This document shows positions 3,672 to 25,203 of a DNA stretch of 64,000 nucleotides, piece after piece. Location of the stretch: positions 558,001-622,000 of the forward strand of contig NZ_JACZCQ010000003.1 of assembly GCF_014904705.1 (NCBI RefSeq), in the 5' to 3' direction. Numbering within the stretch: the stretch's first letter is position 1; each line of letters opens with the position of its first letter. The notes beneath the pieces were generated by a model. It searched no databases. It had not been told where the DNA came from and saw nothing but the letters and a program-made list of their open reading frames with translations. The stretch is from Nisaea sediminum (GTDB taxonomy: Bacteria > Pseudomonadota > Alphaproteobacteria > Thalassobaculales > Thalassobaculaceae). Made by a program: the position numbers and the translations under genes.

Positions 3672-4628
3672 ATGTCAGCGCACGGTTACGAAACGGGCCG
3701 CCTCAACCTGCCCTTCGTCGGGATTTCGACCTTCGGCAAGTACCCCTATCAGCCGGACTGGGACGCCATCGAGGCGGATGTCGCGGTGCTCGGCGCGCCG
3801 TTCGATTTCGGCACCCAGTTCCGTGCGGGCGCCCGCTTCGGTCCGCGCGGGATCCGGGAGGCCTCCACCCTTTTCTCCTTCGGCCATGGCGGCGCCTACG
3901 ACCACGAGGACGACATCACCTACCTGCCGGCGGAGACAACGCGGATCGTCGATCTCGGCGACGCGGACATCATTCATACCGACACCCAGCAGAGCCACGC
4001 CAATATCGAGTACGGGGTGCGCAAGATCCTGAAAGCCGGCGCCATCCCCGTCGTGCTCGGTGGCGACCACTCGGTGAACATTCCCTGCATCAACGCCTTC
4101 TCCGAGGAAGAACCGGTGCATCTGGTGCAGATCGACGCCCATCTCGATTTCGTCGACGAGCGCCACGGCGTCCGCGCCGGCCACGGCAACCCGATGCGCC
4201 GGGCGGCGGAAAAGGATTATGTCACCAGCCTGACGCAGATCGGCATCCGCAACGTCTCCTCCACTGCCCGCGAGGGCTACGAGGCGGCGCGTTCCATGGG
4301 CTCCGACATCCTTTCTGTCCGCCAGTTCCGCAAACTCGGCGTCGCGGCGGTGCTGGAGCGCATCCCGGCCGGCAAACGCTATTACGTCACCATCGATATC
4401 GACGGCTTCGACCCCTCCATCGCCCCCGGCACCGGCACCCCGAGCCATGGCGGCTTCACCTACTACGAAGGGCTGGAACTGCTCGACGGGCTGACGAAGC
4501 GGGGCAGCGTCGTTGGCGTCGATCTGGTCGAGGTCGCGCCGGACTACGACCATGCGGGCTGTACGACGACGCTCGCGGCGCAGCTGCTGCTGAACTTCAT
4601 CGGGCGGATTCTGCATCACCGCACCTAG
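3672..4628 (+). CDS. speB: Agmatinase-type ureohydrolase (arginase family)
   Basis: 318 residues from the ATG at 3672, which has a GGGAT-like site 8 bases upstream; an earlier ATG at 3606 adds 22 residues that do not look like the family. The Mn2+ site is complete: GGDHS (His133), DAHLDF (Asp155, His157, Asp159) and DIDGFDPS (Asp242, Asp244). Ureohydrolases split guanidino compounds into urea and an amine. Agmatine to putrescine is the default reading; guanidinobutyrate or guanidinopropionate are equally possible from sequence alone. It is co-directional with aguA and the amidase, 78 bases after the amidase stop, and ends in a 4-base convergent overlap with the DUF1062 gene. Confidence 0.85.
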   Translation: MSAHGYETGRLNLPFVGISTFGKYPYQPDWDAIEADVAVLGAPFDFGTQFRAGARFGPRGIREASTLFSFGHGGAYDHEDDITYLPAETTRIVDLGDADIIHTDTQQSHANIEYGVRKILKAGAIPVVLGGDHSVNIPCINAFSEEEPVHLVQIDAHLDFVDERHGVRAGHGNPMRRAAEKDYVTSLTQIGIRNVSSTAREGYEAARSMGSDILSVRQFRKLGVAAVLERIPAGKRYYVTIDIDGFDPSIAPGTGTPSHGGFTYYEGLELLDGLTKRGSVVGVDLVEVAPDYDHAGCTTTLAAQLLLNFIGRILHHRT

Positions 4629-5236
4629 TCTGCAATGCAGGACCGGTCGATCCACACGCCCGAAATGACGACCCGCGTCCCGTCCCGCACTGGTTTCCGC
4701 ATGGCGCGTACTCCCTCCGGCTCGACCCGCAGCGCCCCCTCTTTGAGAAGCGCCCGAATGCGTGAACGGGCGAACCCGGTTTCCTGCGCGAGCAGCCGAT
4801 CAAGGCGCAAGCCGGGTGCAGCGGGAACCGAAAGCTCGATCACGATCGCCCCCGGGTTGGCCGGGAGCGGCGCCAGGGCCGTCTTGGTGACACGCACACC
4901 CCCAAATTCCTCGACGCGTTGCGCGCGGCGCCTCAGACCTGCGACATCGAAGGCAATACGATCCGCGAGATCTAGATCGTTTCTCTGCAAAGCATCGAGG
5001 AACGCCGGATCCAGAACGCCGACAGGGTGCCGCTCGAGCAGCGGACGGTTCCAGGTGTCGCTGCAGACGACGCATTTATAGATCAGCCAGGCATCGAGCT
5101 TCTTGCCGTTGCTGTTCAGCCTGAATTTGCCGCTGCTGGCAAAATTCCTGACCGTGCCGCAGTGCCTGCAATGAAGCTGCGGTTCAGGGGCGGCCGTCGG
5201 GACGATTGTCCATCTGGCCCAAAGGATATCGGACAT
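4625..5236 (-). CDS. DUF1062 family protein with two CxxC pairs
   Basis: 203 residues from the ATG at 5236, which has a GGGAAG site 11 bases upstream; a GTG at 5248 is possible but has no spacing for a ribosome binding site. The N-terminal half has LHCRHCG and KCVVCSDTW, two CxxC pairs that probably form a zinc ribbon. The C-terminal third (LRLDRLLAQETGFARSRI then a LLKEGALRV segment) resembles an S4-like RNA-binding fold. This arrangement is typical of DUF1062, whose function is unknown. It is convergent with the ureohydrolase and has no obvious operon partner. Confidence 0.75.
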   Translation of the reverse strand: MSDILWARWTIVPTAAPEPQLHCRHCGTVRNFASSGKFRLNSNGKKLDAWLIYKCVVCSDTWNRPLLERHPVGVLDPAFLDALQRNDLDLADRIAFDVAGLRRRAQRVEEFGGVRVTKTALAPLPANPGAIVIELSVPAAPGLRLDRLLAQETGFARSRIRALLKEGALRVEPEGVRAMRKPVRDGTRVVISGVWIDRSCIAD

Positions 5237-5562
5237 GCCGGTTCGCACTTCCCACTGGGAAGTTCGCCGGATGACGGGATCCGATCAGGCGCGGATACGG
5301 AAGCAGAGCTTCAGGAAATTGCGTTTAAGCGGCCGGGTTATCCGGCGCGGTTCAGCCGTGCCAAACCGGTCTCGACCGCCACCACGCGAAACTTCCATAA
5401 CAGAAGGAGCGGCGCCGTGATCACGGGCCGCGCTGAGATTCGTGGTTCTGGTGAGACCGGCATTTAACTAGGCAAACTGGCTCTACCCTGAGCGATTTCG
5501 AAGGCGTTCTACATATCCGTGCACAACTTGCCGGGCAATACCTGAAGAGAACGCCGCCGATA
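5237..5562. other. Intergenic stretch with no recognisable gene
   Basis: About 325 bases upstream of the DUF1062 gene, up to the terminator of the operon that ends at 5615. Short frames here have no homologue I recognise and no convincing ribosome binding sites. It must contain the DUF1062 promoter, but I see no strong match. Confidence 0.4.
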
Positions 5563-5614: not shown

Positions 5615-6760
5615 TCAGATCGACTGCTTGAACAGTTCGGTCAGGTTCTCGACCGTGAGCTCCACCGGGTTGCCGCCGCAGCTCGGATCCTCGATCGCCA
5701 TGGCGGCGAGTTCGCCGATCCGGTCGGTGCCGACGCCGAGTTCGGACATCTTGTCCGGGATCGAGAGCTGCTCGCGCAGTTCCAGGACATAGTCGTAGAA
5801 CCCGTCGAACCCGCCGGAGATGCCGAGATAGGCGCCCGCCTGGGCGAGTCTGTCCTCGATGGCCGGGCGGTTGAATTGCAGCACCGGCGGCATGACCACC
5901 GCGTTGGTGGTGCCGTGGTGGGTGTTGTAGACGGCACCGAGCGGGTGCGAGAGCGCATGGATCGCGCCGAGGCCCTTCTGGAAGGCAGTCGCGCCCATGG
6001 CCGCAGCGCTCATCATGTGGGCCCTGGCCTCGATGTCGCCACCGTCGGCATAGGCGCGCGGCAGGTACTCCTTGACCAGCCGCATGCCCTCGAGCGCGAT
6101 GCCCTGGCTCATCGGGTGGTAATGCGGGCTGCAGAAGGCCTCAAGGCAGTGCGCGAAGGCGTCCATGCCGGTGCCGGCCGTGATCGGCTTCGGCATGCCG
6201 ACGGTCAGTTCCGGGTCGCAGATCACCACGCTCGGCAGCACCTTCGGATGGAAGATGATCTTCTTCACGTGGGTCTCGGAATTGGTCAGCACGCTGGCGC
6301 GGCCGACCTCGGAACCGGTGCCGGCGGTGGTCGGCACGGCGACGCTCGGATGGATCTTGCTGGCATCGGCGCGGGTCCACCAGTCGCCGATATCCTCGTA
6401 ATCCCAGACCGAGCCCTTCTGGTCCGCCATGAAGGCGACCATCTTGGCGAGGTCGAGGCCGGAGCCGCCACCGAAGGCGACGACGCCGTCATGATTGCCC
6501 GCCTTGAAGGCCTTGATGCCGGCCTCGAGGTTCTTCTCGTTCGGGTTCGGATCGACCTCCGAGAAGATCGCCCGGCCGAGGCCCGCGGCCTCCAGCAGGT
6601 CCAGCGTCTTCGCCGTGATCGGCAGGCTGGCAAGGCCCTTGTCGGTGACGAGCAGCGGGCGCTTGATGCCGGCGGCGGCGCAGGCCTCGCCGATCTCGGC
6701 AATGCGTCCGGCGCCGAAGCGGATCGCGGTCGGGTAGCTCCAGTTGGCTTTGATACTCAT
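5615..6760 (-). CDS. Iron-containing alcohol dehydrogenase
   Basis: 381 residues, full length for the group III Fe-ADH family. Visible are the NAD(P)-binding GGGSGLD (residues 97-103), PTTAGTGSEV (~143-152), and the metal ligands Asp200 and His204 (GMDAFAHCLEA), His268 (AIHALSHPLG) and His282 (NTHHGT). The family oxidises primary alcohols to aldehydes or does the reverse with NAD(P). The gene is the last of the operon and starts 5 bases after the aldehyde dehydrogenase stop. In this setting it is expected to oxidise the hydroxyl of a gamma-glutamylated amino alcohol to the aldehyde used by the preceding gene product (inference). Confidence 0.9.
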   Translation of the reverse strand: MSIKANWSYPTAIRFGAGRIAEIGEACAAAGIKRPLLVTDKGLASLPITAKTLDLLEAAGLGRAIFSEVDPNPNEKNLEAGIKAFKAGNHDGVVAFGGGSGLDLAKMVAFMADQKGSVWDYEDIGDWWTRADASKIHPSVAVPTTAGTGSEVGRASVLTNSETHVKKIIFHPKVLPSVVICDPELTVGMPKPITAGTGMDAFAHCLEAFCSPHYHPMSQGIALEGMRLVKEYLPRAYADGGDIEARAHMMSAAAMGATAFQKGLGAIHALSHPLGAVYNTHHGTTNAVVMPPVLQFNRPAIEDRLAQAGAYLGISGGFDGFYDYVLELREQLSIPDKMSELGVGTDRIGELAAMAIEDPSCGGNPVELTVENLTELFKQSI

Positions 6761-6765
6761 GGCCG

Positions 6766-8148
6766 TCAGGCTTTCTTCAGATGGTAGGATTTCGGGCGTG
6801 TCAGGTTCTGGAACCCGATCACGGAAAGGGCGCCGCCGCGGCCGGTATCCTTGCAGCCGGTCCAGCAGAGGCCCGGATCGAGATAGTCCGCGCGGTTCAT
6901 GAAGACGGTTCCGGTCTCGATCCGCGCGCCGATGGCCGCGGCCCGTCCGGCGTCCTTGGTCCAGAGCGAGGCGGTGAGGCCGTAATTGCTGTCGTTCATC
7001 ATGCGGATGGCCTCCTCGTCGCCGGAGACCTTCATGATGCCGACGACCGGGCCGAAGCTCTCTTCCCGCATCACCGTCATTTCATGGGTCACGTCGACAA
7101 GGATCTGCGGCATCAGATAGGCGCCGCCATCGTCTTGCGGAAAGAGCGCCGGATCGATCAGCGGTTTCGCGCCCTTGGCCACCGCGTCCGCGGTCTGCTC
7201 ACGCACCACAGCGGCGAAGCGCTTGTGCGCCATCGGGCCGAGCGTCGTCGCTTCCTCCAGCGGATTGCCGAGCTTGTAGCCGGAGACGATCGCCACCGCC
7301 TTCTCGACGAAGGCGTCGTAGAGGCTCTCGTGCACATAGATCCGCTCGATACCGCAGCAGCACTGGCCGGAATTGAACATCGCACCGTCGATCAGCGTGT
7401 CCACCGCCGCGTCGAGGTCGGCGTCCTCCATCACATAGCCAGGATCCTTGCCGCCAAGCTCGAGGCCGAGCCCGGTGAAGGTACCCGCCGCCGCCCTCTC
7501 GATGGCACGGCCGCCGCCGACCGAGCCGGTGAAGTTGACGAAATCGAAGCTCTTCGAAGAGATCAGCGCCTCGGTCGTGCCGTGGTCGAGGAAGAGATTG
7601 ACGAAGAGGCCTTTCGGCAGCCCCGCCTCCTCGAAGGCGCGGACCATGCGCTCGCCGACCAGCAGGGTCTGGGTCGCGTGCTTCAGCGCCACCGCGTTCC
7701 CGGCGATGAGCGCCGGCGCGACGGTGTTGATCGCCGTCATGTAGGGATAGTTCCAGGGCGCGATCACGAAGACGAGGCCGTGCGGCTCGCGCAGGATGCG
7801 GCGCTCGAACTTGTCCGAGTCCTCGATCACGATCGGCGCCAGCGCGCTCTCGGCGATTTCCGCCATGTAGGAGGCGCGCTCGTTCGTGCCGCCGAACTCG
7901 CCGCCGTAACGGACCGGCCGGCCCATCATATGCGCCAGTTCCGGCACCATTTCGGCCTGCATCTCGCCGAGCCGGGCAACGCCGGCGCGCACCAGGGCGA
8001 CACGCTCGGAAAGCGGACGCGCCGCCCAGGCGCGCTGGGCCTCCCGCGCCGCGGCGATTATTTCCCGCGCCTGATCGAGACCTAGTACCGGCCGTTCGGC
8101 GAAGACCGAGCCGTCGATCGGCGAAATACATTGCAGCATCTTGCTCAT
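6766..8148 (-). CDS. NAD(P)-dependent aldehyde dehydrogenase
   Basis: 460 residues from the ATG at 8148; a TTG at 8169 would overlap the upstream ligase gene and is less likely. ALDH landmarks: APWNYPY with the catalytic Asn, FTGSVGGG for cofactor binding, LELGGKDP with the general-base Glu, and NSGQCCCGIERI with the nucleophilic Cys (three Cys in a row). It turns an aldehyde into a carboxylate in the cytoplasm. It lies 7 bases after the glutamine-synthetase-like gene and 5 bases before the Fe-ADH gene, so the three form a tight ligase-ALDH-ADH block, the layout expected for oxidising a gamma-glutamyl-protected amino alcohol. Confidence 0.9.
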   Translation of the reverse strand: MSKMLQCISPIDGSVFAERPVLGLDQAREIIAAAREAQRAWAARPLSERVALVRAGVARLGEMQAEMVPELAHMMGRPVRYGGEFGGTNERASYMAEIAESALAPIVIEDSDKFERRILREPHGLVFVIAPWNYPYMTAINTVAPALIAGNAVALKHATQTLLVGERMVRAFEEAGLPKGLFVNLFLDHGTTEALISSKSFDFVNFTGSVGGGRAIERAAAGTFTGLGLELGGKDPGYVMEDADLDAAVDTLIDGAMFNSGQCCCGIERIYVHESLYDAFVEKAVAIVSGYKLGNPLEEATTLGPMAHKRFAAVVREQTADAVAKGAKPLIDPALFPQDDGGAYLMPQILVDVTHEMTVMREESFGPVVGIMKVSGDEEAIRMMNDSNYGLTASLWTKDAGRAAAIGARIETGTVFMNRADYLDPGLCWTGCKDTGRGGALSVIGFQNLTRPKSYHLKKA

Positions 8149-8155
8149 TTGGGTG

Positions 8156-9523
8156 TCAGGCCCTTTCAAACCCGCGATTCACTTCCCAGTCGGTCACCCG
8201 ACGGTCGTATTCGGCCTGCTCCCAGCGGGCCGCATGCACATAATGGTCGATCACGTCGTCGCCGAAGGCCGCCCGCAGCATCTTCGAGCCGTCGAGCTCG
8301 TCGGCCGCCTGGCGGAGCGTGGCGGGGATCTCCGGAACGCCGGTGCCGACATAGGCATCGCCCTTGAACTCGCCTTCGAGCTTCATCTTCTTCTCGATCC
8401 CGTCGAGCCCGGCGGCAATCAGCGCCGCCATGGCGAGATAGGGATTGAGGTCCGAGCCGCCGATCCGGCACTCGACACGCACCGCCTTGGTGCCGTCGCC
8501 GCAGACGCGGAAACCGGCCGTGCGGTTGTCCATCGACCAGACGATCTTGGTCGGCGCGAAGGTGCCGGCGACGAAGCGCTTGTAGGAATTGATGTAGGGC
8601 GCAAGGAAACAGGTGATCTCCTTGGCATGCGCCAGCAGTCCAGCGAGGTAGCTCTGCATCATCTCCGACATGCCGTATTTGGCGTCCGGATCGAAGAACA
8701 GCGGCTTACCGTCCAGCGTCCAGAGCGACTGGTGGATGTGCGAGGAGTTGCCCGCATAGTCGTAATTCCATTTTGCGAGGAAGCTGATCGCGCGGCCCTG
8801 CGCCCAGGCGATCTCCTTGCAGCCGTTCTTGATCAGCACATGCCGGTCGGCCATGGTCAGCGCCTCGGCATAGCGCACATTGATCTCTTCCTGGCCGGCG
8901 TCCGCTTCGCCCTTGGAGTTCTCCACCGGCACGTCGGCGCCGTGCAGGCCGTTGCGGATCGCCCGCATCAGGCCCTCTTCCTTGGTCGTCTGGAAGATGT
9001 GGTAGTCCTCGTTATAGGGACTGATCACGTCGAGATTGCGGTATCCCTGCGCGTGGGCTTCCTCGAAGCTCTGCTTGAAGACGAAGAATTCCAGCTCGGA
9101 GGCCATGAAGGCCTTCATGCCCAGCGCTTCCAGCCGCTTGACCTGCTTCTTCAGGATCGCGCGCGGCGAATGCGCGACCTCTTCGTGGGTGTGATGGTCG
9201 AGCAGGTCGCAGAACACCAGCGCCGTGCCTTCGAGCCACGGAATGCGGCGGATCGTCGAGAGATCCGGCTTCATCGTGTAATCGCCGTAGCCCTTTTCCC
9301 AGCTCGTCGCCTTGTAGCCCTCGACCGTGTACATCTCCATGTCGTTCGCCTGGAGATAGTTGCAGCTGTGGGTCTCCTCGTAGGCGCTCTCGCAGAAGAA
9401 CTCGGCATGGAACCGTTTGCCCATCAGCCGTCCCTGCATGTCGATCTGGACCGCGAGAACGGTATCGATCTCGCCGCTTCCGACGGCCGCCTTCAATTCG
9501 TCGAAGCTGAGCTTGCCTGCCAT
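8156..9523 (-). CDS. Glutamine synthetase-like gamma-glutamyl-amine ligase
   Basis: 455 residues. The GS catalytic domain is clear: ASELEFFVF (first metal Glu), GQEEINVRYAEAL, SSHIHQSL (His of the ATP site), NRTAGFRVCG and RVECRIGGSDLNPYLAMAA (substrate and phosphate Arg residues). The N-terminal part lacks the DGSS stretch that contributes the ammonium-binding Asp of true GlnA, and no adenylylation Tyr motif is seen. This fits the GlnA-like enzymes (PuuA, IpuC, GlnT-like) that join glutamate to an organic amine at the cost of ATP. Linked TRAP, ADH and ALDH genes point to an amino alcohol such as ethanolamine or alaninol, but the amine cannot be read from sequence. Confidence 0.87.
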   Translation of the reverse strand: MAGKLSFDELKAAVGSGEIDTVLAVQIDMQGRLMGKRFHAEFFCESAYEETHSCNYLQANDMEMYTVEGYKATSWEKGYGDYTMKPDLSTIRRIPWLEGTALVFCDLLDHHTHEEVAHSPRAILKKQVKRLEALGMKAFMASELEFFVFKQSFEEAHAQGYRNLDVISPYNEDYHIFQTTKEEGLMRAIRNGLHGADVPVENSKGEADAGQEEINVRYAEALTMADRHVLIKNGCKEIAWAQGRAISFLAKWNYDYAGNSSHIHQSLWTLDGKPLFFDPDAKYGMSEMMQSYLAGLLAHAKEITCFLAPYINSYKRFVAGTFAPTKIVWSMDNRTAGFRVCGDGTKAVRVECRIGGSDLNPYLAMAALIAAGLDGIEKKMKLEGEFKGDAYVGTGVPEIPATLRQAADELDGSKMLRAAFGDDVIDHYVHAARWEQAEYDRRVTDWEVNRGFERA

Positions 9524-9683: not shown

Positions 9684-10739
9684 TTAGCTATAGCGGTACG
9701 GCTTGCCCGCCTTTTTCATATCCGATGCATACTTCTTGAAGATATCGATGACCTTCTTAGTCCGCGGCGTCTGGGCGGCGATTTCGTCCCAGAACTTCTC
9801 GGCCTCGGCCTCGACCGTCGCCCACTCGTCGTCGGCGATGGTGGTCAGCTTCATCTTGGTGCCGTCGACGCGCAGCTTCGCCTCGCCGCCCCAGTACCAG
9901 TGCTGGCGGTAATAGTGCGAGCTGTCCATGCAGAGCCTGAAGAGTTCCTTCAGATGCTCCGGCAGCTCGTTCCAGCGTTCGGAGTTGGCGAAGTAGGAAC
10001 CGCACCAGGCACCGGAAATGTTGTTGGTGAGGAAGTAGTTGGTCACGTCGGCCCAGCCCACCGTGTAATCCTCGGTGATGCCCGACCAGGCGATGCCGTC
10101 GAGCTCGCCGGTCTGCACCGCGACCTCGATGTCTTCCCACGGCAGGGTCACCGGAATGACGCCGAAGCGGGACAGGAACTTACCCGCGGTCGGGAAGGTG
10201 AAGACCCGCTTGCCCTTCAGGTCGTCGAGCTTGTTGATCGGATCGACGGTGGCGAAGTGGCACGGGTCCCAGGCGCCGGCGCTGAGCCAGGTCACGCCCT
10301 CGACTTCACCGTAAGCCTCTTCCCAGATCTCCTTCAGGCCGTACTGGTTGAACAGCACCGGTACGTCGAGGCTGTAGCGGGTCGCGAACGGGAAGTAGCC
10401 GCCGAAGACCGAGATATCGACCGGCGCAGCGATGGAATCGTCGTCGCTCTGCACCGCGTCGATGGTGCCGCGCTGCATGGCGCGGAAGAGCTCGCCCGTC
10501 GGAACCAGCTGGTCGGCGAAATAGAGCTCGATCTCCATCTCGCCGTTGGCGACCTTGTTGAAGGCGTCGATCGACGGCTTGATCACGTGCTCGGCGAGCG
10601 CCGGACCGGCATAGGTCTGCAGCCGCCACTTGATCTTGCTCTGGGCCTTCACGGCCGGCGCGGCGAGTGTCGCGGCTCCGGCAACGCCCGCCGTCGTCGC
10701 GGCGGCGGCCGTCTTCAGAAATTCACGTCTGTTCGTCAT
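9684..10739 (-). CDS. TRAP transporter substrate-binding protein (DctP family, Tat-type signal)
   Basis: 351 residues. The N-terminus NRREFLKTAAAA followed by an Ala-rich core and APAVKAQS is a twin-arginine-type export signal, so the protein is periplasmic. The mature part carries DctP/TakP-family features: QTYAGPALAEHV, LYFADQLVPTGELFRAMQRG, LDDLKGKRVFTFPTAGKF and ELDGIAWSG. It captures a solute for the DctQM permease encoded just upstream. Members close to the alpha-keto-acid type bind varied organic acids and amines; the ligand here is unknown. It is separated from dctM by a hairpin-rich 145-base gap and from the ligase gene by another hairpin, a layout that usually lets binding protein exceed permease. 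Confidence 0.88.
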   Translation of the reverse strand: MTNRREFLKTAAAATTAGVAGAATLAAPAVKAQSKIKWRLQTYAGPALAEHVIKPSIDAFNKVANGEMEIELYFADQLVPTGELFRAMQRGTIDAVQSDDDSIAAPVDISVFGGYFPFATRYSLDVPVLFNQYGLKEIWEEAYGEVEGVTWLSAGAWDPCHFATVDPINKLDDLKGKRVFTFPTAGKFLSRFGVIPVTLPWEDIEVAVQTGELDGIAWSGITEDYTVGWADVTNYFLTNNISGAWCGSYFANSERWNELPEHLKELFRLCMDSSHYYRQHWYWGGEAKLRVDGTKMKLTTIADDEWATVEAEAEKFWDEIAAQTPRTKKVIDIFKKYASDMKKAGKPYRYS

Positions 10740-10884: not shown

Positions 10885-12210
10885 CTACCTTCCGTAGAAT
10901 TGGTTGGGCAGCCACATCGCGATATCGGGGAAGATCATGACCAGAATGAGCGCCAATGTCATGACCAGCACGAAGGGGCCGATGGACCGGTAGATGTCCG
11001 ACAGCGTGACCTCCGGCGGCGCCATGGCGCGCATCAGGAAGAGGTTGTAACCGAATGGCGGCGTCATATAGGCGATCTGGCAGGTGATCGTGTAGAGCAC
11101 GCCGTACCAGACCAGATCGAAGCCCAGCATCTTCACCAGCGGCACATAGAGCGGCGCGACGATGACCAGCATCGCCGTGTCGTCGAGGAACATGCCCATC
11201 AGGATGAAGGAGAGCTGCATCAGGATCAGGATCTCCCAGGGCCCGAGACCGAGCCGGTCGACGAAGAAGCTCTCGATCGCCTTAACGGCGCCAAGACCGT
11301 CGAAGACGGCGCCGAAACAGAGCGCGGCGAGAATGATCCACATGAACATGCAGGAGATGCCCAGCGTCTTGCGCAGCACCTCTTCCATAACCTCCGCCGT
11401 CAGCCGGCGCTTGACGAGCGCGGCCAGGGTCGCCGCCGTGGCTCCGACAGCGGAGCTCTCGACCAGCGAGGTCACCCCCATCAGGAACAGCCCGGTCATC
11501 GAGAAGAAGATGAAGAGCGGCAGGATGCCGGCCTTGAGCAGGCTGATCTTCTCTTCCCAGGTGATTTCCGCCCGCTCCTCCTTGCTGAGCGACGGCCCGA
11601 GGGAGGGCTGCATCCAGCAGCGGATGACGATATAGGCGATGAACATGCCCGCCATCATCAGGCCGGGTATGGCGCCCGCGAGCCAGAGCTGGCTGACCGG
11701 CTGGCGCGCGATCATGCCGTAGAGCACGAGCACGACGCTCGGCGGCACCAGGATGCCGAGCGAACTGCCGGCCTGGATCACGCCGGTCACCATGATCTTG
11801 TCGTAGCCGCGGCGAAGCAGTTCCGGCAGCGCGATACTGGCGCCGATGGCCATGCCCGCAACCGAGAGCCCGTTCATCGCCGACACCGCGACCATCAGCA
11901 GGATCGTGCCGATCGCGAGACCGCCGTTCAGCGGCCCCATCCAGACATGGAACATGCGGTAGAGATCGTCGGCGATCTTCGACTCCGACAGCATGTAGCC
12001 CATGTAGACGAAGAGCGGCAGGGTCAGCAGCGGATACCATTTCATCAGCTTCATGGCCGCGCTGAAGGCCATTTCGGAGCCGCCGTCGCCCCCGAGCTGC
12101 AGCGCTGCCGCCCTGGCCGCGGAACCCATGGGCCCGAAGACCCGCTGCCCCGTGAGGAGCAGCAGCATCATCGAGGAGAACATGAGGAGGGCGATAAGCT
12201 CGTAACTCAT
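10885..12210 (-). CDS. dctM: TRAP transporter large permease (DctM)
   Basis: 441 residues of almost unbroken hydrophobic segments, about 12 predicted helices. Family features: VAVSAMNGLSVAGMAIGASIALPELLRRGYDK near residues 100-135, the SSLGILVPPSVVLVLYG loop, MGMFLDDTAMLVIVAPLYVPLV, and AYMTPPFGYNLFLMR near the C-terminus. It forms the sodium-driven channel of the TRAP transporter with the small subunit. The start overlaps the DctQ stop as ATGA, so the two subunits are translationally coupled. Confidence 0.92.
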   Translation of the reverse strand: MSYELIALLMFSSMMLLLLTGQRVFGPMGSAARAAALQLGGDGGSEMAFSAAMKLMKWYPLLTLPLFVYMGYMLSESKIADDLYRMFHVWMGPLNGGLAIGTILLMVAVSAMNGLSVAGMAIGASIALPELLRRGYDKIMVTGVIQAGSSLGILVPPSVVLVLYGMIARQPVSQLWLAGAIPGLMMAGMFIAYIVIRCWMQPSLGPSLSKEERAEITWEEKISLLKAGILPLFIFFSMTGLFLMGVTSLVESSAVGATAATLAALVKRRLTAEVMEEVLRKTLGISCMFMWIILAALCFGAVFDGLGAVKAIESFFVDRLGLGPWEILILMQLSFILMGMFLDDTAMLVIVAPLYVPLVKMLGFDLVWYGVLYTITCQIAYMTPPFGYNLFLMRAMAPPEVTLSDIYRSIGPFVLVMTLALILVMIFPDIAMWLPNQFYGR

Positions 12211-12716
12211 CAGAGTTCCTCCCCGCGCAGTGCGGCAATATCCTTGAAGAGCGTCGCGACCGCCTGCAGCAGCATGAGCAGAACCCCGAAGGTCATGACG
12301 ATCTTCACCGGCGCCATGTAGGGCGCCCAGGCGGAATAGCTCTGCTCGTTGTATTCGATGGCGTAGGCGGTCGAGGAATAGCCGCCATAGAGCAGCAGGC
12401 AGAGATAGAAGATCAGGAAGAGAACGGTGATCGAGTCGACCAGAGAGCGGGTCCGCGGTTTCCAGTTCGTGTAGAGCAGGTCCATGCGCACATGGTCGCC
12501 GAGCTGCATGGAATAGCCGCCGCCCAGCAGGTAATAGGCCACCATCAGAAACTGCGCGGTCTCGAGCGTCCAGAGCGACGGCAGGAATACCGCCTTGGAA
12601 AGCGACGAATAGAGCAGCACGCCCAGCATCGCGAAGATCAGATACATCGCGAACCGGCCGATGAAGCGGTTCATCTTCTCGACATAGGCAACGTAGAGCC
12701 GTATCGCTTTTGGCAT
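12210..12716 (-). CDS. dctQ: TRAP transporter small permease (DctQ)
   Basis: 168 residues from the ATG at 12716, which is directly preceded by AAGGGGCGGAGG; a longer frame to 12776 would overlap the upstream gene. Four hydrophobic segments are visible, with the DctQ-type SLWTLETAQFLMVAYYLLGGGYSMQ region and a conserved DHVRMD after it. It partners DctM in the inner membrane. It starts 10 bases after the stop of the amidohydrolase-like gene. Confidence 0.88.
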   Translation of the reverse strand: MPKAIRLYVAYVEKMNRFIGRFAMYLIFAMLGVLLYSSLSKAVFLPSLWTLETAQFLMVAYYLLGGGYSMQLGDHVRMDLLYTNWKPRTRSLVDSITVLFLIFYLCLLLYGGYSSTAYAIEYNEQSYSAWAPYMAPVKIVMTFGVLLMLLQAVATLFKDIAALRGEEL

Positions 12717-12726
12717 CCTCCGCCCC

Positions 12727-13539
12727 TTATCTCTGCTGGTCGTTGCTGTTGCCGTCGCCGCCCGCGCAGAGCTCAAGAGCCCTCGCTACCGCGCCCGACA
12801 GCCGCTCCGCCATGGCGCGCTGCTGCGCCGTCTCGCGGATGATGTCGTTGCGGATTTCGATCATGACGTTGAGCAGGCCATGCGGCAGCGCGTGGACCTT
12901 CAACGTGTGCGTCACGCCATCGGCCGGGCCGTAGGGCTCGTTCCGGCGTACGTCCAGTCCGGCGAATATTTCCTGCTGATCCAGCATTGCGTCGGCGAGG
13001 CGGCTGTCCGCATCGTGAAGAATGCCGAGATCGAAATGTCTTTCGACCCCTTTGTAGACGGGCGTGAAGGAATGCACGGTCACGATCGCCGGACGCTGTC
13101 CCGCCGCCATGCGGCCTTCGATGACGTGCTCCAGCGTGTCGCGGAACGGAAAGTAGATCCGCTCTGCGCGTTCTGCGCGCTGCATCTTGGTCAGGCCGGC
13201 ATTGCCCGGGATTTCGTAGATCTCGCTCACCGCCGGCATGGCGCTTTCGGCCTCGGGCGGGCGGTTGCAGTCATAGACCAGGCGGGAAGTCTTCGCCGCC
13301 ACCAGGGGCGCATCAAGCGTGGCGGCCATGGTCGAAGCCACGGCAAGCGCTCCCGGGTCCCATGCCACATGGCTCTGTTGGACGGCTTCGTCAACGCCGA
13401 GCCCATGCAAATGGGCCGGAATATGGTTGGAGGCGTGTTCGCAAACGACGATCGCGGCACGCTTGCCGCCCTCGTTCGTCACGCTGACCGGATTGCCCCA
13501 CGCGGACAGATCCGCGATCGGCTGCGCCGACAATGCCAC
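12727..13539 (-). CDS. N-formylglutamate amidohydrolase-like protein (COG3931 type)
   Basis: 270 residues from a GTG at 13539, chosen because GGGGAG lies 7 bases upstream; a TTG at 13575 is weaker. Family motifs: VVCEHASNHIP (metal-binding His region), SRLVYDCNRPP, VTVHSFTPVYKG and RHFDLGILHD. Characterised relatives (HutG type) cleave N-formyl-L-glutamate to formate and glutamate with a metal ion. No histidine-degradation gene is near. It is the first gene of the TRAP/ligase/ALDH/ADH operon, so an attractive reading is hydrolysis of the gamma-glutamyl product to recycle glutamate, the step PuuD performs in putrescine degradation. That role is inference. Confidence 0.82.
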   Translation of the reverse strand: MALSAQPIADLSAWGNPVSVTNEGGKRAAIVVCEHASNHIPAHLHGLGVDEAVQQSHVAWDPGALAVASTMAATLDAPLVAAKTSRLVYDCNRPPEAESAMPAVSEIYEIPGNAGLTKMQRAERAERIYFPFRDTLEHVIEGRMAAGQRPAIVTVHSFTPVYKGVERHFDLGILHDADSRLADAMLDQQEIFAGLDVRRNEPYGPADGVTHTLKVHALPHGLLNVMIEIRNDIIRETAQQRAMAERLSGAVARALELCAGGDGNSNDQQR

Positions 13540-13682
13540 TCGCCCTCTCCCCTGACGTTGCAGCCATCTTTTCAACTTTGATCAGGCAGTCAAGGATAAT
13601 TCTGAAAATTCCTCTTCTATAAATCTGAGATTGTCGCATTATTTTCAAAACGACACGGCGCGGTCGCGCCCGGGAGGATGAA
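13540..13682. promoter_or_regulatory. Divergent promoter/operator region of the gamma-glutamyl operon and its RpiR regulator
   Basis: 143 bases between the divergent starts. An AT-rich core (about 13575-13655) contains CTGAAAAT and, on the other side, ATTTTCAA, which form spaced GAAA/TTTC half sites of the kind RpiR-type proteins bind. I cannot fix exact -35/-10 elements. The regulator probably controls both directions from here. Confidence 0.45.
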
Positions 13683-14558
13683 TTGTCGGAACCCCTGACC
13701 GGAACGGTGGCGGAGCGCATCAGGCGCCGGTTCGAGTCGCTGACCCGAGCGGAGCGTCAGCTCACCAATGTCATTCTCGAGAACTATCCGGTGTCCGGCC
13801 TCGGCACGATAACGACACTGGCCGAGACAGCCGATGTCTCCACGCCGACGGCGGCGCGGATGGCCCGCAAGCTCGGCTTCGGCGGTTTTCCCGAGATGCA
13901 GGCCGCGCTCCGGTCGGAACTCGAGGCCACCCTCTCCAATCCGATCGCGAAGCACGACAGCTGGGCCGCGAACGCACCGGACACCCATATCCTCAACCGC
14001 TTCGCCGATGCGGTGACGGACAATCTCAGGCAAACCCTGCAGCAGCTCGACCTCTCGGACTTCAACGCGGTCGTCGACCTGCTGAGCGATCCTGCACGCA
14101 ATATCTATCTCGTTGGCGGCCGCATCAGCCGGTCGATGGCGGATTACTTCTTCACCCACATGCAGGTGATCCGGGACGGTGTGACGCTGATCTCGCCGAA
14201 TTCGAACACCTGGCCGCATTATGTGCTGAACATGAAGGAAGGCGACGTGCTCGTCGCCTTCGACATCCGGCGCTACGAGCATGACACGCAGCGCCTGGCG
14301 GAAATGGCGAAGGAGCGCGGGGCGCGCCTGGTGCTCTTCACCGACCAGTGGGGCTCGCCGGCCGCGAAACATGCGAGCCACAGCTTCCGCGCCCGCATCG
14401 AGGTGCCGTCGGCCTGGGACAGTTCCGCCGTGATCCTGTTCATCATCGAGGCGCTGATCGCCGCGGTGCAGACGGAACGCTGGGAAGAGACAAGGGACCG
14501 GATGAAAGTTCTGGAACAGCTCTTCGACCAGACGAAACTCTTCCGCAAGTTCACCTGA
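13683..14558 (+). CDS. RpiR/MurR family transcriptional regulator
   Basis: 291 residues from a TTG start. GGGAGG at 13672-13677 is spaced 5 bases from the TTG, whereas the ATG at 13678 is in another frame and stops after six codons. The N-terminal helix-turn-helix (ERIRRRFESLTRAERQL then TITTLAETADVSTPTAARMARKLGFGGFPEMQ, residues ~10-75) is the HTH_6 type. Residues ~125-255 form a SIS phosphosugar-binding-like domain with IYLVGGRISRSMADYF. RpiR proteins sense small effectors and control catabolic genes. It is divergent from the seven-gene operon and most likely regulates it. Confidence 0.9.
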   Translation: MSEPLTGTVAERIRRRFESLTRAERQLTNVILENYPVSGLGTITTLAETADVSTPTAARMARKLGFGGFPEMQAALRSELEATLSNPIAKHDSWAANAPDTHILNRFADAVTDNLRQTLQQLDLSDFNAVVDLLSDPARNIYLVGGRISRSMADYFFTHMQVIRDGVTLISPNSNTWPHYVLNMKEGDVLVAFDIRRYEHDTQRLAEMAKERGARLVLFTDQWGSPAAKHASHSFRARIEVPSAWDSSAVILFIIEALIAAVQTERWEETRDRMKVLEQLFDQTKLFRKFT

Positions 14559-21532: not shown

Positions 21533-24412
21533 ATGAGCATCAACCCGTTCGAAACGGTTGTTGAGACTGTCGAGACATCGCCGCCGGTATCCGACGAGAC
21601 CAAGTTCACGACCTGCTACATGTGCGCCTGCCGCTGCGGCATCAAGGTGCATCTGCGCGACGGCACCGTCCGCTATATCGAGGGCAACAGGAACCACCCG
21701 GTGAACAAGGGGGTGCTCTGCGCCAAGGGCTCCGCCGGGATCATGCAGCACTATTCGCCCGCCCGGCTGACCAAACCGCTGATGCGGGTCGGCGAACGCG
21801 GCAGCGGCGAGTTTCGCGAGGTCGAGTGGGAAGAGGCCCTTGCGACTGCCGCAGGCTGGCTCGGCGACATCCGCAAGAGCGATCCTCGCAAGCTCGCCTT
21901 CTTTACCGGCCGCGACCAGTCGCAGTCGCTGACCGGCTGGTGGGCAAGCCAGTTCGGCACCCCGAACCACGCCGCGCACGGTGGGTTCTGTTCGGTGAAC
22001 ATGGCGGCCGCCGGACTCTATTCCATCGGCGGCTCGTTCTGGGAATTCGGCGAGCCCGACTGGGAGCACACCAAATATTTCATGATGTTCGGCGTCGCCG
22101 AGGATCACGATTCGAACCCGATCAAGATCGGCCTTGGGAAGCTGAAGACGCGGGGCGCCAAGTTCGTCTCGGTCAATCCGGTGAAGACCGGCTATTCCGC
22201 CATCGCCGACGAATGGGTCGGCATCCGCCCCGGCACGGACGGGCTGCTGATCCTTTCGCTGGTCCACGAGTTGCTGCGCGCGGGCAAGGTCGACCTGCAG
22301 TACCTCGTCCGCTACACCAACGCGCCCTGGCTGGTGATCCAGGATCCGGGTGGCGGCGAGCACGGTCTTTTCGCGCGCGATTCCGAGGGTCGGCCGCTAG
22401 CGTTCGACAAGAAGAGCGGAACCATCGTCTCCGCGCTCGACACCGATATCACGCCGGACCTCTCCGGTGACCATGTGCTGCCGGACGGTCGTAAGGCCGT
22501 CCCGTCCTTCAAGCTGCTGGCCGAGCGCTATATCGACCCGGCCTACGCGCCAGATACGGTGGCGAAGGAATGCGGGCTGAAGGCGGAGACCATCAAGCGT
22601 CTCGCCGCCGAACTCGCGCATGCCGCCTTCGAGCAGGAAATCACCCTCGATGTGCCCTGGACCGACTGGGCCGGACGGCGGCATGAGAAGATGACCGGCC
22701 GCCCGGTCGCTATGCATGCGATGCGCGGCATCTCGGCCCATTCCAACGGCTTCCATACCTGCCGCGCGCTGCATGTGTTGCAGATGCTGCTCGGCAGCAT
22801 CGATTGCCCGGGCGGCTTCCGTTACAAGCCGCCCTTCCCGCGCCCCTGCCCGCCGCCGCTGAAACCGGTCGGCCGTCCGGACCAGGTGAAACCGGAAACC
22901 CCTATGGCGGGCCCGCCGCTCGGCTTCCCGATGGGGCCGGAGGATCTTCTGGTTCACGAGGACGGCAGCCCCGCGCGGATCGACAAGGCCTTCTCCTGGG
23001 AAGCGCCGATGGCCGTGCACGGCATGATGCACATGGTCATCCACAATGCCTGGGCGCAGGATCCCTATCCGATCGACACGCTCTTCATGTACATGGCCAA
23101 CATGTCCTGGAATTCGACGATGAATTCCAAGGGCACCATGGAAAAGCTGACCGACAAGGATCCCGCGACCGGCGAGTACAGGATCCCGCGGATCATCTAT
23201 TCCGACGCCTATGCCTCCGAGATGGTGGCCTATGCCGATCTCGTCCTGCCCGACACGACCTATCTCGAGCGCTGGGACTGCATCTCGCTGCTCGACCGGC
23301 CGATCTGCGATGCGGACGGCGCCGCGGACTCGATCCGCCAGCCTGTCGTGCCTCTCGACCGCGACGTGCGGCCGTTCCAGGAGGTGCTGATCGAGCTCGG
23401 TGTCCGCCTCGGCCTGCCCGGCCTGACGAAGGAAGACGGCTCGGCGAGATATCCGGGCGGCTATCCGGACTATATCGCCAATCACGAGCGCGCGCCGGGC
23501 GTCGGCCCGCTCGCCGGCTGGCGGGGCGCGGACGGCACCGAAGGCGGCAAGGGTGCGCCGAACCCTAACCAGCTACAGCGCTATATCGAGAACGAGTGCT
23601 TCTGGCGCCACGAGTTCGCGCCGGAAGAGCGTTATTACAAGCATTCCAACAAGGCTTATCTGGAGACCGCGACGAAGCTCGGCTTCATCGGCGCGCCGAA
23701 CCAGGTCATCCTTCAGCTCTATGTCGAGCCGCTGCAGCGCTTCCGCCTGGCCGCCGAGGGGCACGGGGACCTCCAGCCCCCCGAGAAAGACCGCGAGCGG
23801 CTGAAGCGCACTTTCGACCCGCTGCCGATCTGGTACCAGCCGTTCGAGGAGAGCGAGGTCGACACGGCCAGCTTCCCGATGCACGCGATCACCCAGCGCC
23901 CGGCGGCGATGTATCATTCCTGGGGCTCGCAGAATGCCTGGCTGCGTCAGCTGCACGGCAAGAACCCGCTCTTCATGAACCGGGAGCGCGCCGAGAGTCT
24001 CGGCGTCGCCGACGGCGACTGGGTCTATGTCACCTCCCATCACGGCCGCATCAAGGTACCGGTGAAGCTGATGGAAGGCGTCAATCCGGACACCGCCTGG
24101 ACCTGGAACGCCATCGGCAAGCGTCGCGGGGCCTGGAACCTCGGCAAGGACGCGCCGGAGGCGACCAAGGGCTTCCTGCTGAACCACGTGATCTCCGAAC
24201 TGCTGCCGGCGCGCGGCGACGGGTACCGCTACGCCAATGCCGATCCGGTGACCGGACAGGCGGCCTGGTACGACCTGCGCATCCGGATCGAGAAGGCGGA
24301 GCCGGACCGGCCCGGATCCGTTTCCGAGCCGCAGTTCCCCGAGCTCGGCAATCCCTCCAGCGTCGCGCGTCCGAAAGGGCCGCTGCAGTTCCGCGGGAGG
24401 CGCAGCCGATGA
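21533..24412 (+). CDS. soeA: Sulfite dehydrogenase molybdopterin subunit SoeA
   Basis: 959 residues, the size of SoeA. Cys28, Cys31, Cys35 (CYMCACRCG) and Cys63 (GVLCAKG) bind the N-terminal 4Fe-4S cluster. The rest shows the DMSO-reductase-family architecture: FFTGRDQSQSLTGWW, VSVNPVKTGYSAIADEWVGIRPGTDG, LVLPDTTYLERWD and a C-terminal guanosine-binding barrel with NREDRAESLGVADGDWVYV-like sequence. There is no Tat signal, so it is cytoplasmic, as known SoeA is. It oxidises sulfite to sulfate and passes electrons through SoeB and SoeC to quinone. GGAGAGAG precedes the ATG. Nearby TauE/SafE and TauB-type genes support the sulfur assignment over a formate or polysulfide enzyme. Confidence 0.85.
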   Translation: MSINPFETVVETVETSPPVSDETKFTTCYMCACRCGIKVHLRDGTVRYIEGNRNHPVNKGVLCAKGSAGIMQHYSPARLTKPLMRVGERGSGEFREVEWEEALATAAGWLGDIRKSDPRKLAFFTGRDQSQSLTGWWASQFGTPNHAAHGGFCSVNMAAAGLYSIGGSFWEFGEPDWEHTKYFMMFGVAEDHDSNPIKIGLGKLKTRGAKFVSVNPVKTGYSAIADEWVGIRPGTDGLLILSLVHELLRAGKVDLQYLVRYTNAPWLVIQDPGGGEHGLFARDSEGRPLAFDKKSGTIVSALDTDITPDLSGDHVLPDGRKAVPSFKLLAERYIDPAYAPDTVAKECGLKAETIKRLAAELAHAAFEQEITLDVPWTDWAGRRHEKMTGRPVAMHAMRGISAHSNGFHTCRALHVLQMLLGSIDCPGGFRYKPPFPRPCPPPLKPVGRPDQVKPETPMAGPPLGFPMGPEDLLVHEDGSPARIDKAFSWEAPMAVHGMMHMVIHNAWAQDPYPIDTLFMYMANMSWNSTMNSKGTMEKLTDKDPATGEYRIPRIIYSDAYASEMVAYADLVLPDTTYLERWDCISLLDRPICDADGAADSIRQPVVPLDRDVRPFQEVLIELGVRLGLPGLTKEDGSARYPGGYPDYIANHERAPGVGPLAGWRGADGTEGGKGAPNPNQLQRYIENECFWRHEFAPEERYYKHSNKAYLETATKLGFIGAPNQVILQLYVEPLQRFRLAAEGHGDLQPPEKDRERLKRTFDPLPIWYQPFEESEVDTASFPMHAITQRPAAMYHSWGSQNAWLRQLHGKNPLFMNRERAESLGVADGDWVYVTSHHGRIKVPVKLMEGVNPDTAWTWNAIGKRRGAWNLGKDAPEATKGFLLNHVISELLPARGDGYRYANADPVTGQAAWYDLRIRIEKAEPDRPGSVSEPQFPELGNPSSVARPKGPLQFRGRRSR

Positions 24413-25203
24413 CCTCGCTCCCGACCGAAACGACGGGCAAGAAGCTCGGCCTCGTCATCGATCTCGATATCTGCGTGGGCTGTCATGCCTGCGCGGTGAA
24501 CTGCAAGGAATGGAACACCGGCGGCCATTCCGCGCCGCTGACCGACTGGAACGCCTATAGCGCGGACGAAGAGGAAGACGGCGACGAAGGCGCCTGGGGC
24601 GTCTGGTTCAACCGCATCCACACCTACGAGGCGGGTGAAGGCGAAGACGCGCGCACCGTTCATTTCCCGCGCTCCTGCCTGCATTGCGAGACGCCGGACT
24701 GCGTCACCGTCTGCCCGACCGGTGCCTCCTACAAGCGCGCGGAGGACGGTATCGTCCTGGTCAATGCCGACCTCTGCATCGGCTGTAAGCTCTGCTCCTG
24801 GGCCTGCCCCTACGGCGCGCGGGAGTACGACAAGACCGAGGGCGTGATGAAGAAATGCACGCTCTGCGTCGACAAGATCTACAACGAGAACCTTGAAGAA
24901 CGGGACCGCGTCCCGGCCTGCGTCTCCACCTGCCCGGCCGGTGCGCGGCATTACGGCGATCTGGGAGATCCGACGTCCGACGTCTCGCGACTGGTCGAGG
25001 CCCGGGGCGGCTACGAGCTGATGCCGGAGATGGGCTACAAGCCGGTCAACCGCTACCTCCCGCCGCGCCCGCGCCGCACCGAGGCCGCCGATATCGGGGC
25101 GCCGGAGCGTCTTGCCGATCTGGCGGACAAAGTCCCTTCGACTGAATCGACCGCCGGCGCCACGGGTCTGCTCGGCTGGCTCGACCAGATGCTCTCCCGC
25201 TGA
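24409..25203 (+). CDS. soeB: Sulfite dehydrogenase iron-sulfur subunit SoeB
   Basis: 264 residues from the ATG that overlaps the soeA stop (ATGA). Sixteen Cys in four ferredoxin-type groups can be traced: CVGCHACAVNCK, CLHCETPDCVTVCP, CIGCKLCSWACP and CTLC...CVSTCP, enough for four 4Fe-4S clusters. KLGLVIDLDICVGCHACAVNC is the characteristic SoeB/DmsB-type opening. It carries electrons from the molybdenum subunit to the membrane anchor. It lies on the cytoplasmic side with SoeA since neither has an export signal. Confidence 0.88.
   Translation: MTSLPTETTGKKLGLVIDLDICVGCHACAVNCKEWNTGGHSAPLTDWNAYSADEEEDGDEGAWGVWFNRIHTYEAGEGEDARTVHFPRSCLHCETPDCVTVCPTGASYKRAEDGIVLVNADLCIGCKLCSWACPYGAREYDKTEGVMKKCTLCVDKIYNENLEERDRVPACVSTCPAGARHYGDLGDPTSDVSRLVEARGGYELMPEMGYKPVNRYLPPRPRRTEAADIGAPERLADLADKVPSTESTAGATGLLGWLDQMLSR

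Follow-up and report, generated by a model that had tools for sequence, protein, structure and literature searches.

A formylglutamate amidohydrolase-family protein as the probable gamma-glutamylglycine amidohydrolase of an ethanolamine operon in Nisaea sediminum

Introduction

The closest described relative of the locus reported here is the ethanolamine operon of Phaeobacter sp. MED193, which has the order RpiR-GGAH-EtoV-EtoW-EtoX-ETAGA-GAADDH-GETADH and whose first enzyme, MED193_10026, has been named gamma-glutamylglycine amidohydrolase, GGAH (PMC10132767). On phosphorylethanolamine the abundance of the MED193 amidohydrolase, ligase, two dehydrogenases and EtoX is increased, and binding of ethanolamine by EtoX was measured at 7.9 μM (PMC10132767). 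For C. salexigens and A. tumefaciens C58 the same paper refers to Vetting et al. 2015 with the wording “demonstrated”, and PMC6529630 describes the same assignment as “predicted in an in silico approach”.

A second system is the GlnA4 ethanolamine pathway of S. coelicolor, for whose last step a gamma-glutamylglycine amidohydrolase of the formylglutamate amidohydrolase family is proposed, in the accessible text as a prediction; its chemistry is the same as that proposed below, although the gene cluster and the transporter are different (PMC6529630). An analogous step, the freeing of glutamate that concludes a gamma-glutamylation pathway, is performed by PuuD, the gamma-glutamyl-GABA hydrolase, which belongs to an unrelated family (class I amidotransferase-like, PF07722). 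Operon order and GGAH assignment are, in short, already published for related bacteria and are not new. Here we describe the corresponding operon of Nisaea sediminum, located within a window (the whole stretch of DNA analysed) of 64,000 nucleotides, with emphasis on its leading gene, FGase.

Results

Organization of the operon

Seven genes on the minus strand form the operon. The first encodes an FGase-family (PF05013) amidohydrolase (12727–13539), a probable GGAH according to its Pfam match, its identity to 2ODF and synteny, and is followed by the TRAP small permease DctQ (EtoV-like, 12210–12776; PF04290, 73 bits), the large permease DctM (EtoW-like, 10885–12210; PF06808, 219 bits) and the solute-binding protein DctP, an orthologue of ethanolamine-binding EtoX (9684–10739). 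Downstream lie a glutamine synthetase (GS)-like ligase, probably an ethanolamine gamma-glutamylase (ETAGA; 8156–9523; PF00120, 339 bits), an aldehyde dehydrogenase (ALDH; 6766–8169; PF00171, 394 bits) and an iron-containing alcohol dehydrogenase (ADH; 5615–6760; PF00465, 170 bits); the families and conserved places of these last two suggest a gamma-glutamyl-aminoacetaldehyde dehydrogenase and a gamma-glutamylethanolamide dehydrogenase, respectively. Divergent from the operon, on the plus strand, is an RpiR/SIS-domain protein (13683–14558; PF01418 and PF01380), its probable regulator. The original prediction, that a gene of the HutG-family type leads a gamma-glutamylation operon, is borne out by this arrangement. 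The eight genes, their order and the role assigned to the amidohydrolase are shared with MED193; the locus belongs to another genus and is known from sequence, whereas the MED193 operon has been studied experimentally. From its place in the operon, MED193_10026 may be taken as the FGase counterpart.

The FGase reading frame extends over 12727–13575 with a TTG at 13575 as an alternative start, giving a protein of 270–282 residues. An in-frame GTG at 13539, with a purine-rich GGGGAG just upstream, is the likely start. A scan for promoters and terminators gave results no better than those for shuffled sequences, and a PHROGs search returned no match. Immediately after the operon, also on the minus strand, comes a gene for a DUF1062 protein (4625–5248); elsewhere in the window (21533–25203), translations judged by eye suggest a large molybdopterin-oxidoreductase-like protein and, after it, a 4Fe-4S protein.

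The GS-like ligase scores below every curated cut-off applied (GlnA, type III GS and gamma-glutamylputrescine synthetase), reaching 265.9 bits against the TIGR00653 (GlnA) equivalog cut-off of 429. The FDGSSI motif of GlnA carries residues of the ammonium site; in an alignment with the GlnA of the same genome, this motif is replaced by VEGYKA in the operon ligase.

Family and fold of the FGase protein

The FGase protein matches PF05013 over residues 41–246 with 139.1 bits (gathering score 28.9); this is its sole Pfam match, PF07722 (PuuD) not being found in it. Nor does the operon contain a PuuD-like gene, as originally noted, but the statement does not extend to the genome, which carries Peptidase_C26 (PF07722) genes elsewhere, the best scoring 243 bits.

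The AlphaFold model (pLDDT 91.6) has as its best structural neighbour Atu2144 (2ODF, Z 38.2), followed by the Ralstonia N-formylglutamate amidohydrolase 2Q7S (Z 23.0) and the phage poly-gamma-glutamate hydrolase 3A9L (Z 13.1); cell-wall amidases and M14 carboxypeptidases match at Z 11–13. These similarities fit an M14-like, carboxypeptidase-like fold, and FGase is probably a metal-dependent hydrolase. Some members of this fold cleave gamma-glutamyl bonds, with which the matches are consistent without proving the substrate; the 3A9L match (Z about 13) is near those of amidases and carboxypeptidases with other specificities (Z about 11–12).

The protein is also the least conserved of the operon. 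Its identity to the counterpart in Nisaea denitrificans (L053) is 65%, the other seven proteins showing 86–93%, and over 80 related loci its median identity is 54% as compared with about 74–76% for DctM, DctP, the GS-like ligase, ALDH and ADH.

FGase is distinct from HutG

Window FGase and HutG share a Pfam family and a fold. However, against TIGR02017, the profile for HutG N-formylglutamate deformylase, FGase scores 18.4 bits where the equivalog cut-off is 278.75. In a tree of 90 sequences, 22 operon-type sequences including Atu2144 form one clade (SH-aLRT 98) and 14 HutGs a separate clade (100), with long branches between the two; a larger FastTree run recovers both. The profile score together with the tree led us to reject a HutG function for the window FGase, and its description as a recruited HutG-like enzyme was misleading, since the two branches are well separated.

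The absence of a hut gene nearby was correctly noted and holds more widely, with no protein at HutG level in the whole genome (TIGR02017, threshold E ≤ 1e-60). Three other PF05013 genes are present in the genome (L001, L002 and L003). They score 97, 104 and 29 bits against TIGR02017, all far under the cut-off, and none lies within an evident hut operon.

The alignment reveals residues common to all FGase groups, including H47, R98, D102, N104, R105, H168 and E240, for which a catalytic role is presumed. Specific to the operon clade are D219-G-V-T-H223 (the DGVTH motif), P74 and M238. Where HutG has DTDWH, Arg214 and Gln238, the operon clade has HxAWD, Pro214 and Met238, in addition to the DGVTH motif. 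In M14 carboxypeptidases an Asn-Arg pair binds the C-terminal carboxylate. The invariant N104-R105 of FGase resembles this pair and, by analogy, would suit the carboxylate of glycine.

The closest solved relative, Atu2144 (PDB 2ODF), was deposited as a hypothetical protein. It is 53% identical to the window FGase over 250 residues, belongs to the same clade and stands in the tree beside the Agrobacterium rosae copy, which itself comes from an operon of the rhizobial form.

Conservation of gene order

A scan of named genomes yielded 80 related loci, 55 of which exceed 20 kb. The full order RpiR(−) FGase DctQ DctM DctP GS ALDH ADH is present in 27 of these 55, and a further 21 (Rhizobium, Sinorhizobium, Shinella, Agrobacterium and similar) are without the TRAP genes while keeping RpiR, FGase, GS, ALDH and ADH; such an arrangement is far from chance. 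RpiR is found in 77 of the 80 loci, each time divergent from FGase, and the place of FGase, with the divergent RpiR on one side and the Eto transporter and ligase genes on the other as for GGAH, is nearly fixed over all 80. In the sole rhizobial-type locus checked, an AA_permease_2 protein, probably an ethanolamine importer, occupies the TRAP position (L064:10786–12405).

Four of the 55 loci hold RpiR, FGase and TRAP genes only. These ligase-less loci were considered as a counter-example and dismissed, as the ligase-ALDH-ADH genes are located elsewhere in those genomes. Separation of the RpiR-FGase-TRAP block from a ligase-ALDH-ADH block was seen in L055, L057, L059 and L102 and in genomes G190–G196. 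Across the ligase-separated genomes the ADH orthologue is 57–66% identical. In G191 a ligase orthologue (66%) lies unlinked, together with its ADH; in G190, G192, G193 and G196 the ADH orthologue (57–63%) is near an ALDH and a GS-like ligase only 30–33% identical to that of the window, and the ligase is thus exchangeable while FGase stays. We regard it as a lead that orthologues of FGase stay with the pathway even where its ligase or transporter has been replaced or is no longer linked. There is no FGase beside the separate module in G190 and G196; that of G192 and G193 adjoins a second FGase of its own, and either FGase could serve it.

A link to ethanolamine

By phmmer, the closest solved relative of the window DctP is Csal_0678 (4UAB, 4XF5), with an E-value of 1.8e-169 and 74% identity. 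In the 4UAB crystal structure ethanolamine is held through Glu220 (PMC12410723). Allowing for the numbering offset of the entry, this residue corresponds to E223 of the window DctP, which is invariant in all 19 aligned orthologues, including those from loci without a nearby ligase. The window DctP thereby shows both orthology to the EtoX/Csal_0678 type and its ethanolamine-holding glutamate. EutBC-type breakdown of ethanolamine was ruled out for this genome, in which no eutB/EutB was found.

Discussion

The gene order, families, orthology, conserved ethanolamine site and conserved presumed catalytic residues are all observed in this locus. On sequence grounds, FGase is very probably the gamma-glutamylglycine amidohydrolase that completes the glutamylation (Eto) pathway of ethanolamine. 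Ethanolamine would be imported by the TRAP transporter and joined by the GS-like ligase to glutamate, with ATP spent, to give gamma-glutamylethanolamide, the alcohol of which would be converted to the aldehyde by the iron-containing ADH and then by ALDH to the acid, gamma-glutamylglycine. FGase would then cut the gamma-amide bond, releasing glycine and glutamate, the latter for recycling, and RpiR probably controls the operon. For this organism we infer each catalytic step, the order of the steps and their regulation. A gamma-glutamyl hydrolase, with gamma-glutamylglycine among the substrates named, had been predicted for this gene and fits all the evidence. The accompanying claims of novelty and of recruitment from HutG do not stand: because PMC10132767 names GGAH in the same gene order, the supposed new activity for the family is the assignment already published for orthologous operons (see also PMC6529630).

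The same chemistry could act on another or broader substrate, (S)-2-amino-1-propanol (L-alaninol) or other small amino alcohols, with FGase freeing alanine or a different amino acid from the gamma-glutamyl conjugate. For Csal_0678 there are two structures, 4uab and 4xf5, the latter with bound 2-amino-1-propanol, and the Eto enzymes could be promiscuous. We nevertheless consider this reading unlikely, as published induction and binding data on the orthologous operon favour ethanolamine, though the analogues tested there include no other amino alcohol (PMC10132767). That FGase cleaves gamma-glutamylethanolamide itself, in editing or recycling, would agree with a gene adjoining those of the transporter and apart from those of the dehydrogenases. 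Such hydrolysis would, however, be a futile, ATP-burning cycle, and the Asn-Arg motif expected to bind the carboxylate of the leaving group is invariant, while ethanolamine has no carboxylate, making this very improbable.

Slighter still is the chance that FGase is a true deformylase of N-formylglutamate or N-formyl-amino acids merely travelling with the operon. PF05013 membership and the family name speak for it, but the score far under the HutG cut-off, the separate clade with other residues at conserved positions and the near-fixed place in 80 loci all speak against. Hydrolysis of gamma-glutamylglycine is the reading we prefer.

Beyond this operon, GS-like ligase, FGase and an isochorismatase-like cysteine hydrolase cluster together at L147:7512–10263, L144:8355–11096, L181:6987–10379, L206:8286–11127 and L236:8216–11075, some of these clusters adjoining Liv/urea-type ABC transporter genes. 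Non-HutG FGases are also adjacent to GS-like ligases in L141 and L168/L169; most others of the class have no such neighbour. A single clade of GS-partnered FGases was hinted at by a first tree (5/6 vs 0/43 in a Fisher test on a chosen subset) and was rejected when a larger tree scattered the label (6 changes, with L236 outside), for which reason no single origin of GS partnering is claimed. Tentatively, and with the odds somewhat against it, the non-HutG branch may comprise a wide range of gamma-glutamyl-amide hydrolases that pair with several GS-like ligases, the ethanolamine operon being one case and the isochorismatase cluster, which in some genomes adjoins a branched-chain/urea-type ABC transporter, another that would degrade some amine or amide via gamma-glutamyl intermediates.

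The wider pairing of FGases with GS-like ligases points, as a lead, to further gamma-glutamylation routes and uncharacterised amine pathways. A misleading database name is also corrected, alphaproteobacterial proteins called “N-formylglutamate amidohydrolase” often not being HutG, and the DGVTH motif together with the clade could serve for annotating operon-type FGases. High expression of ethanolamine transporter genes in the ocean has been reported (PMC10132767), and the operon clade most likely serves the recovery of nitrogen from ethanolamine.
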